Below, in pieces: positions 4,036 through 12,080 of a stretch of 64,000 bases of DNA. The DNA comes from Chaetoceros tenuissimus (Eukaryota > Bacillariophyta > Thalassiosirophyceae > Chaetocerotales > Chaetocerotaceae). Where the stretch lies: assembly GCA_021927905.1 (NCBI GenBank), contig BLLK01000020.1, forward strand, positions 1,736,001 through 1,800,000, given 5' to 3'. Each line of letters begins with the position of its first letter. The first letter of the stretch is position 1. The notes beneath the pieces are model-generated. The model searched no databases. It was not told the DNA's origin and saw only the letters and a program-made list of their open reading frames with translations. Position numbers and translations under genes: made by a program.

Positions 4036-4411
4036 TGGTACTTGAAGGAAGATACACTTGAAACGGTTATTATGCGTAGTATCAATAGTGTATTATTATT
4101 TGTAATGAAAGCTTCAAATCATCTCACATCCAAAAGAATACTTCAGTATTCCGGAACAAAAGGGAAAAGAAAAGAACCAAAACATCATCCCCAATCAAAG
4201 AGTACGACTAAAAGAGATATCCCCTCGGTCGTGAGAGGGGAACGGAAGGACCAATGGATAGATTGAACCAATTTTTGTATCGTCATTGTTTTTTCTTCCG
4301 TTCATGTTCCATGGAACATCATCATGGAATTTTTATAAGCAACTCCTAAACGAGTCAACTATTTCTTGCAGCATAAATCCGTAATATTCTTACAAAAGAT
4401 AAACATACTCA
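4036..4411. other. Intergenic/divergent promoter
   Basis: Region between the divergent trefoil-like gene and MsrA. A frame open on the + strand (3913-4266) is largely antisense to the trefoil gene and shows no family. The only structure seen is a 16-bp palindrome (listed separately). Confidence 0.55.
4304..4319. promoter_or_regulatory. 16-bp perfect palindrome upstream of MsrA
   Basis: ATGTTCCATGGAACAT equals its own reverse complement. It lies 93 bp before the MsrA start codon. It could bind a dimeric regulator; no known factor is assigned. Confidence 0.35.
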
Positions 4412-4909
4412 ATGGGAAACAAAATGTCAATGAAGTGTCCTGAAATTCCATTGCAACCTGAAAAAGCTGGAAATAACATTGCTGTATTTGCCAGTGGATG
4501 ATTTTGGGGACCACAGCTCAGATTCTCCAAATTGAATGGAGTACATCGAGTTGTGGTAGGATATGCAGGAGGATCAACACTCAATCCAACTTACAAGCGC
4601 ATCATGGATCATACCGAAGCATATCTGATAGAATTTGACGAGAATGTGATCTCATATGAAGACTTGATTGTTGAGTGGGCTCGTACTCACAGTCCTACCA
4701 GGCAAACGAGCCGTCAGTATCGTAGTGTATTATTTTATGTGGACGATGCACAAAAGGAAATAGCACAAGATGCACTACGAGGTCTTTCTCAAAAATATGT
4801 AGGTTCTTCTGTGAAACTTTATGTTGATATTGAGAAATGGACAAAATTTTACCAAGCCGAGGAATACCATCAACACTACTTGAAGAAAAAGGGTATGGAT
4901 TATAGGTAA
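4412..4909 (+). CDS. msrA: Selenoprotein peptide-methionine (S)-S-oxide reductase MsrA, TGA read as selenocysteine
   Basis: Reduces methionine-S-sulfoxide in proteins and free Met. From ATG 4412 the frame is open except for one TGA at 4499-4501, then runs to TAA at 4909 (165 residues with Sec30). The TGA sits exactly at the catalytic Cys of the MsrA signature GCFWG, here read G-U-FWG. Family blocks continue on both sides: VGYAGGSTLNPTY, the QYRS motif, and FYQAEEYHQHYLKKK at the C terminus. Only one ordinary Cys (residue 9) remains and there is no C-terminal resolving Cys. The Glu two residues after GCFWG in most MsrA is Gln here (FWGPQ). No targeting peptide, so probably cytosolic. Sec-containing MsrA is known from algae. 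A candidate SECIS lies 3' of the stop. Confidence 0.85.
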
Positions 4910-4965: not shown

Positions 4966-5030
4966 TTACTTTGAATGACAGAGCAGGATGATTTGTTGCA
5001 ACGAAAAGATCCTGGTCTTGAACAAAAGTA
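4966..5030 (+). promoter_or_regulatory. Candidate SECIS element in the msrA 3' UTR
   Basis: Starts about 57 nt after the MsrA stop. Seen: 5' ATGA (4975-4978) facing 3' TGA (5019-5021), the SECIS quartet. Between them is a helix of about 9-10 pairs (AGAGCAGGAT with ATCCTGGTCT, one G/G mismatch and one bulged C) capped by a 19-nt loop. Outside the quartet, TACTTTG pairs with CAAAAGTA (one bulged A) as helix I. The order fits eukaryotic SECIS. The unpaired AA expected on the 5' side of the apical loop is GA here, so the call is tentative. Confidence 0.5.
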
Positions 5031-10485: not shown

Positions 10486-10700
10486 AGGCGATGACATGTG
10501 CCGTTATAACCGTCAATTTATAGAAGAGAACACTTACGAACATGCATATCGATGCTCGTAAATCTTCAACCTTCAACTTACCAACTATCACCTCAATAAC
10601 CATTAACACCATCGGTCTATCAACGGTATACTTTTCCTCAATTATTACGCTTGTGTCGATTTCAATAAATTAAGCGCTACCTATTGTGTCAAGTTTCAGC

Positions 10701-12080
10701 ATGGAAAACACATCATTCTATAGAAGAGAGCTCCCAGCAACATGTGTCGCACTTTCTGCACGACAAGGACAACAGCTATTTCGTTCAGCAATGAATCATA
10801 ACTTTACGAATAACTTTTTCGATTTGATATCTCAATTTCATACGCAAACAGAACCTGCATTTTGTGGACCATCAACTTTGGTAATGATATTAAATGCATT
10901 TAGCGTTGATCCCCGGAAAAAGTGGAAAGGTCCTTGGCGATGGTTCGAAGAAAGTATGCTCAACTGTTGTATTGATTTGGAGAAAATAAAAAAGACAGGC
11001 ATCACATTTTCAACATTTGTATGTCTTGCTCAATGTCAAGGTCTCAAGACACAAGCAGTCTATGGAACAGATTCCACTCTCGAAGAATTCCGCAATGCTG
11101 TCAAGATTGCATGTGGGTGCTATCCTGAGAATTGTATACGAAAAAATTGCGATGCAAGAGGTACTGGCGATTTCTCGGAAAGTAGTACCTGTCTACCTTG
11201 TGGAATCAATGATGAGAAGTTTATTGAACAGCAAACATTTTTAGTTGTCAGCTACAATAGAAAAACACTTCAGCAGACAGGCACTGGACATTTTTCACCA
11301 ATTGCTGCATATGATCCAAAATCTGACTCTGCTCTGATCTTGGATACTGCGCGATTCAAGTACCCTCCCCATTGGGTGAAGTTGGATTTACTCTTTGAAT
11401 CTATGAAGTCAGTTGATGTTGAAACAGGAAAATCAAGAGGTTACGTACTACTATCCTATGAAAAAGATGAAATTTGTAACTCGCCCAATTTTCTGCTACC
11501 ACAATCGCTACTTTTTCGATCAACAAAGAGTCAAAATCCAGCGAGGCTAAAATTTAAAGTGTTTCTTGATGAAAAGAGAAAAGTATGCAAAAAGGTTACT
11601 TTCAGAGACGTTCTGGATTATTTTGCAAGTGGGTCTGACTGCTCAAAGATCTGGACAATTGTCGAACCAGCTGAAATTCCCTTGGACGGTCATGAATTGT
11701 TTAGGCTCAATCAGCTTTTACATGTGATTCAAGAAATGATGGAAAGAGAAGCAAAAGATAATACCTTGGAACTGGATTCTTCCCTTACAAAGTCAATGGC
11801 TCCATGTAGCCAGAGAATAGTCCATATCTCAATTTTACAAACAATATTCGTCATTTATTTATCAACCTTGGATCCATCATCTGTGTCAGATGAAATTAGA
11901 AAGGTAGAATTGCACGATGAGGACTTTCCTCAAGACAGCATATTAGATAAAGAAGAAACGGCTTCTTATATACATGCACAAATTCAGTCTGAAGTGGATT
12001 TGATTAGAAATGCTATTGATTATAGCAGCAATAGTGAAACAGAGCGATGTAGATGTGGTAACATACAAAATAAGATGTAG
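10701..12080 (+). CDS. PCS: Phytochelatin synthase
   Basis: Gamma-glutamylcysteine dipeptidyltranspeptidase that makes phytochelatins from glutathione for heavy-metal detoxification. Single exon from ATG 10701, 459 residues. Papain-like catalytic residues seen: Cys55 (QTEPAFCGPSTL), His197 (QTGTGHFSPI) and Asp215 (ILDTARFKYPPHW). Unusual: between the Cys and His blocks, at about residues 138-167, is a Cys-rich insert (C138, C140, C145, C150, C164, C167) longer than the matching segment in plant enzymes; it could bind metal. The C-terminal region is variable, as in the family, and ends with CRCGN. No targeting signal, fitting a cytosolic enzyme. Confidence 0.9.
   Translation: MENTSFYRRELPATCVALSARQGQQLFRSAMNHNFTNNFFDLISQFHTQTEPAFCGPSTLVMILNAFSVDPRKKWKGPWRWFEESMLNCCIDLEKIKKTGITFSTFVCLAQCQGLKTQAVYGTDSTLEEFRNAVKIACGCYPENCIRKNCDARGTGDFSESSTCLPCGINDEKFIEQQTFLVVSYNRKTLQQTGTGHFSPIAAYDPKSDSALILDTARFKYPPHWVKLDLLFESMKSVDVETGKSRGYVLLSYEKDEICNSPNFLLPQSLLFRSTKSQNPARLKFKVFLDEKRKVCKKVTFRDVLDYFASGSDCSKIWTIVEPAEIPLDGHELFRLNQLLHVIQEMMEREAKDNTLELDSSLTKSMAPCSQRIVHISILQTIFVIYLSTLDPSSVSDEIRKVELHDEDFPQDSILDKEETASYIHAQIQSEVDLIRNAIDYSSNSETERCRCGNIQNKM

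Follow-up and report, generated by a model that had tools for sequence, protein, structure and literature searches.

On its forward strand, the window (the whole stretch analysed, 64,000 nucleotides, C14:1736001-1800000 of the Chaetoceros tenuissimus genome) carries an MsrA coding sequence of 165 residues (4412-4909) with a TGA at the catalytic codon (4499-4501), read here as selenocysteine (Sec) at residue 30 of a G-U-F-W-G site. The frame opens at ATG 4412 and closes with TAA (4907-4909), and the TGA at codon 30 is its sole internal stop. Since an in-frame TAA (4400-4402) precedes ATG 4412, we take this ATG to be the natural start. With the TGA read through, the protein matched Pfam PMSR (PF01625) at 131 bits over profile positions 2-151 of 153, and TIGR00401 at 121 bits (cut-off 108). 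The portion after the TGA alone scored 101 bits with PMSR (profile 20-151), so the codons upstream contribute 30 bits and MsrA sequence lies in one frame on both sides of the TGA, as a first-pass annotation of this DNA had proposed.

The same annotation had placed a single in-frame TGA where the catalytic Cys of GCFWG belongs, and an alignment with 11 other MsrAs agrees with this. Glu69, Tyr51 and Tyr103, which we take to correspond to active-site residues of other MsrAs, are invariant in all 12 aligned proteins. Glu69 matches Glu55 of C. oremlandii MsrA in the ungapped start of the sequence alignment, and the titles of solved structures include U16C/E55D and U16C/E55A variants of that enzyme. 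The alternative downstream starts, TTG 4532 and ATG 4604, both lie beyond codon 30; a start at either would remove the active site, and the warning that a start placed after the TGA would do so holds for both. A phytochelatin synthase gene (10686-12080; PF05023, 280 bits) lies approximately 6 kb from the MsrA gene.

A second MsrA gene with TGA at the catalytic codon

PF01625 matched the genome (41,027,912 bases, 68 contigs) at 11 places, and a single internal TGA is present in three. At two of these, the window gene and a locus on another contig (L006; C33:736329), the TGA occupies the catalytic codon. The remaining one, L004, was set aside, as its GCFWG lies in another exon and its TGA therefore falls outside the catalytic codon. 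L006 (L006:1342-1932) is a second Sec-MsrA, with GUFWH, 43% identity to the window protein, a signal-like N-terminus and a SECIS-like element at L006:1982-2040. Its N-terminus opens with a hydrophobic stretch and AHAF, resembling the diatom plastid signal, and this paralogue may act in the plastid. The window MsrA, having no N-terminal targeting extension, is probably cytosolic.

Three Cys-MsrA paralogues in the same genome (L001, L002 and L008) share the PMSR domain with the window MsrA but carry a Cys codon at the catalytic site (GCFW) rather than TGA. Unlike that of the window MsrA, their 3′ flanks hold no ATGAC candidate of at least 19.5 in the scoring described below.

A SECIS-like hairpin in the 3′ flank

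The best candidate in the 3′ flank of the window gene was a SECIS-like hairpin on the forward strand (4967-5030; score 25.5; fold z of -2.53 and -2.34). Its lowest-energy fold displays helix I (4967-4972/5025-5030), a quartet loop (ATGA 4975-4978, GA 5020-5021), helix II with one mismatch (4980-4989/5009-5018) and an apical mini-helix (4992-4996/5001-5005). The quartet starts at the 66th base past the MsrA stop codon, and free folding recovers a quartet of the form NTGA/GA with helices I and II behind the stop.

The SECISearch pattern, as given in the part of PMC2375036 that we used, requires AA or CC at a distance of 10-13 bases downstream of the quartet. At these positions the window element has neither, with TG, GA, AT and TT there instead. 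In a first round of six TGA genes (the window MsrA, the L006 MsrA, the GPx genes L028, L029 and L030, and SelT L057), the apical AA or CC was also missing from L006, L029 and L057, three of the other five elements, whereas L028 and L030 have AA. In 6/6 of these elements the quartet is followed by a C that faces T or C. Lineage-specific SECIS features are known in kind, since in Dictyostelium the SECIS core is described as preceded by conserved sequence and immediately followed by a U-U mismatch (PMC2375036, same part).

Rfam SECIS_1 gave no match to the 3′ flank in the window, and none genome-wide at E up to 10. An exact SECIS-core pattern matched the genome at 22 places and its reversed control at 12; among the 22, only the window element and the GPx element (L028, the same as L050) show matching helices by eye, so the exact core string is not general. 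In an attempt at a covariance model, the 3′ halves of the elements did not align.

Scoring of 3′ flanks against controls

Quartet-helix candidates in 3′ flanks were scored with a cut-off of 19.5, the C of ATGAC being left unscored. Because the score was designed after viewing the two MsrA elements and that of GPx L028, the test on the first-round genes (n = 6) is only partly out of sample. The best flank candidate has ATGAC in 6/6 of these genes, with scores from 19.5 to 25.5, the window gene being highest. When each flank was resampled 300 times with a Markov model, the real score was reached by 1 resample for the window, 2 for L006, 22 for L028, 6 for L029, 25 for L030 and 19 for L057; with ATGAC also demanded, the counts fell to 3 for L028, 2 for L030 and 0 for each of the window, L006, L029 and L057. 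Elsewhere in the window (127.7 kb, both strands counted), one ATGAC candidate reaches at least 19.5 and none at least 22.5, and nine reach 19.5 and one reaches 25.5 when the C condition is dropped, all of these being counts derived from rates.

Control flanks (n = 22) were drawn from genes taken as non-Sec, with gene ends assumed and L056 not read residue by residue. None of them has an ATGAC candidate of at least 19.5 (maximum 15.0), and ATGAC is the best candidate in two, L007 and L032, at 13.0 and 15.0. Without the C condition, 3/22 reach 19.5 (L018, 20.0; L056, 19.5; L141, 19.5).

A later test covered four SelU-like loci, three of which (L146, L147 and L148) have an in-frame TGA that we take to sit in the SelU-like motif. 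The best scores of L147 (26.5) and L146 (18.5) both belong to ATGAC candidates. L148 scored 16.5 with GTGAA and just 14.5 with ATGAC, and L149, with no TGA in frame, scored 12.0. The cut-off is therefore reached by 1/3 of the SelU-like TGA genes; taking all nine TGA genes together, an ATGAC candidate scores at least 19.5 in 7/9, and the top candidate is of the ATGAC type in 8/9.

Free folding gave a stable structure for only the two MsrA elements among the first-round six. The L028, L029, L030 and L057 elements were no more stable than their shuffles (z between -0.97 and +0.42), and the expected helix II is absent from the best free fold of the L028 element. Besides the MsrA genes, the genome holds further probable selenoprotein genes, namely GPx L028, L029 and L030, SelT L057 and the SelU-like L146, L147 and L148; their 3′ elements are of the ATGAC type and differ in quality.

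Selenocysteine machinery in the genome

The first-pass annotation had named absence of Sec machinery as grounds for abandoning its reading. This machinery was looked for in the genome and is present: we found tRNA-Sec, SepSecS, selenophosphate synthetase, eEFSec and SBP2, with PSTK the weakest and a candidate only. Five tRNA-Sec matches lie above the Rfam cut-off, three of them confirmed by ARAGORN with anticodon tca. SepSecS matched at 508 bits and selenophosphate synthetase at 258 bits. eEFSec was assigned to L020, the first part of which was read and which scored 296 bits to a solved eEFSec, 155 to SelB (4ac9) and 103 to EF-Tu; L018, another candidate for eEFSec, was rejected, as its sequence reads as EF-Tu. 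SBP2 was assigned to L144, which scored 80 bits to SBP2 in 7zjw and 26 bits to the runner-up, L7a. The divergent PSTK candidate, L032, scored 77 bits against a family cut-off of 382 and also has a KTI12 match above the Pfam cut-off.

The sole selenophosphate synthetase match (L026:1108-2667; C19:93680) has, by reading, Cys at the usual Sec place (RCGGCGAKVG), and a long upstream extension in the same frame. SPS2 is among the T. pseudonana selenoproteins listed in the consulted part of PMC2375036.

Two of the tRNA-Sec loci are unusual. A tRNA-Sec-like sequence with anticodon TTA (L012:1501-1586; C34:1126986-1127071; 69.6 bits) is separated by approximately 2.7 kb from L010, a normal tRNA-Sec; by reading, it has C at position 33 and discriminator A, with its stems otherwise intact. 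It is probably a non-functional tRNA-Sec copy, with a UAA-reading tRNA-Sec paralogue as the less likely alternative. The other (L013:1501-1598; C54:1808110-1808207) is a tRNA-Sec whose anticodon loop carries 12 inserted bases that may be an intron. A tRNA-Sec with an intron has been reported from Daphnia pulex, and multiple tRNA-Sec genes from the diatom Fragilariopsis cylindrus (both from the part of PMC5330540 that treats them).

Alternative explanations of the TGA

The frame, the codon, the homology, the paralogue, the hairpin-forming sequence and the machinery genes are observed directly. The central claim of the first-pass annotation, that Sec occupies the catalytic position of MsrA, is supported by the TGA paralogue, the 3′ SECIS-like element and the Sec machinery genes. 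From the sequence evidence we regard it as nearly certain that 4412-4909 is a genuine selenoprotein MsrA, its UGA predicted to be decoded as Sec via the 3′ SECIS hairpin. Instead, a catalytic TGC or TGT might have become TGA by mutation or base-calling, leaving a dead gene or a wrong assembly. One base change suffices for this, and the TGA was seen in a single assembly, without reads; yet no further stop occurs across the 165 codons, a paralogue 43% identical and located on a different contig shares the TGA codon at this position, a SECIS-like element stands 3′ of both MsrA genes and the genome encodes the Sec machinery. That a pair of diverged genes should both carry TGA at this one codon argues against error and decay, and we hold this explanation to be very improbable.

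It is scarcely credible that the TGA is a true stop followed by a downstream start, which would yield a shortened product lacking the catalytic residue. The remainder does keep its 101 bits as PMSR and has an in-frame ATG available at 4604, but the codons before the TGA add their 30 bits of MsrA match and hold a CPEIP motif common to the paralogue, and the SECIS-like element would be useless. Decoding of the TGA as Trp or Cys, via an altered genetic code or suppressor tRNA, would look identical in DNA, although no positive support for it was found. Against it stand the tRNA-Sec genes, whose anticodon is tca, and the remaining Sec machinery, as well as the membership of the other TGA genes in known selenoprotein families (GPx, SelT, SelU-like), each presumably with TGA in the usual Sec motif of its family. 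A Trp at the catalytic site would also be inactive, and we rate such decoding as extremely unlikely.

Discussion

From the genes described above we infer Sec insertion, catalysis, the compartment, and resolution by either Cys9 or an outside thiol. Under the selenoprotein reading, the SECIS hairpin would recruit SBP2 and eEFSec with Sec-tRNA-Sec, and Sec would be inserted at UGA 4499-4501. The substrate would be methionine-S-sulfoxide: the Sec selenolate would attack the sulfoxide and methionine would leave, and the selenenic acid left on Sec30 would then be resolved by Cys9 or by an outside thiol. For MsrA in general, the consulted part of PMC4479559 describes attack on the sulfoxide by the catalytic residue, release of methionine and resolution of the oxidised residue by a second cysteine. 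According to the same part, glutaredoxin resolves the 1-Cys C. oremlandii MsrA, and dimerisation offers an additional route.

Cys9 belongs to the CPEIP motif (4436-4450, forward strand), in which C9, P10, E11, I12 and P13 are identical between the window MsrA and L006. There is no Cys after residue 30 in the window MsrA, and Cys9 is common to the paralogue; it is a possible N-terminal resolving cysteine for Sec30. A search for relatives in genome contigs, in which U was turned into C and TGA forms were invisible, returned relatives in 440 of 517 stretches, of which 80 were kept. A Cys within the 30 residues before the motif was seen in 0/80 of these prokaryotic relatives, although in many the sequence begins just a few residues ahead of it. 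Of 71 stretches in viral contigs that fitted the MsrA pattern, none proved to be a relative.

A wider proposal, which we consider speculative and rather unlikely, is that SECIS drifted away from the general eukaryotic pattern in this diatom lineage, with the apical AA often missing and the core fixed as AATGAC, its C facing C or T, so that standard searches miss many selenoproteins, and that diatom Sec-MsrAs resolve the selenenic acid by a lineage-specific N-terminal CPEIP cysteine and not a C-terminal one.

The case shows that a real selenoprotein can be recognised from raw sequence alone, and that reading the TGA as a stop would cost the MsrA its active site. For specialists it offers modest gains, namely two Sec-MsrA genes in one diatom, a one-genome set of diatom SECIS-like elements, several of them without the apical AA, and a common N-terminal cysteine that allows a simple mutant test. 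A literature search on Chaetoceros and selenoproteins found no paper whose title concerns the window MsrA, and the C. tenuissimus genome paper (PMC8613185) contains no word beginning with 'seleno' in its main text.

Among solved proteins, C. oremlandii MsrA is the closest to the window MsrA in both sequence and fold. The seven best sequence matches are MsrA chains, six of them from C. oremlandii by their titles. The structure predicted for the window MsrA has a mean pLDDT of 86.1; its fold matches at ranks 1-5 and 7 are C. oremlandii MsrA, and matches 1-45 are all titled as MsrA-type except rank 6, whose chain is an MsrA in the sequence search. The C. oremlandii enzyme is a natural Sec-MsrA (PMC4479559, consulted part). 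The two proteins are alike in having a catalytic Sec, no later cysteine and a short loop before QYRS. They differ in that C. oremlandii uses bacterial Sec decoding and its MsrA is without any cysteine, whereas the window MsrA has Cys9. The C-terminal helical domain of the C. oremlandii protein (residues 145-209) is also absent from the window MsrA, the match ending at its residue 141; deleting this domain almost abolishes C. oremlandii MsrA activity (PMC4333827, consulted part). In a tree of 17 rows, from which other algal Sec-MsrAs are absent, the two diatom Sec-MsrAs are sisters (83/92) and C. oremlandii MsrA falls among bacterial Cys forms (97/98), apart from the diatom pair, with the order of the deeper forks uncertain. 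The arrangement is compatible with Sec having been gained separately, or with its having been lost.

Among eukaryotes, Sec-MsrA was reported in 2007 for the diatom Thalassiosira pseudonana and for Ostreococcus (PMC2375036), and it is widespread in algae (PMC7539508); these reports, in the parts consulted, bear out the first-pass statement that Sec-MsrA occurs in green and other algae. Sec-MsrA in diatoms is thus already published, and the window gene adds another species. The T. pseudonana and Ostreococcus proteins share with it the family, the Sec form and SECIS-dependent eukaryotic decoding, and T. pseudonana is also a diatom. Less ordinary are the missing apical AA and the CPEIP cysteine common to both Sec-MsrA copies. 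Compared by description only, C. tenuissimus has two Sec-MsrA genes, whereas one is listed for T. pseudonana in the consulted part of PMC2375036.
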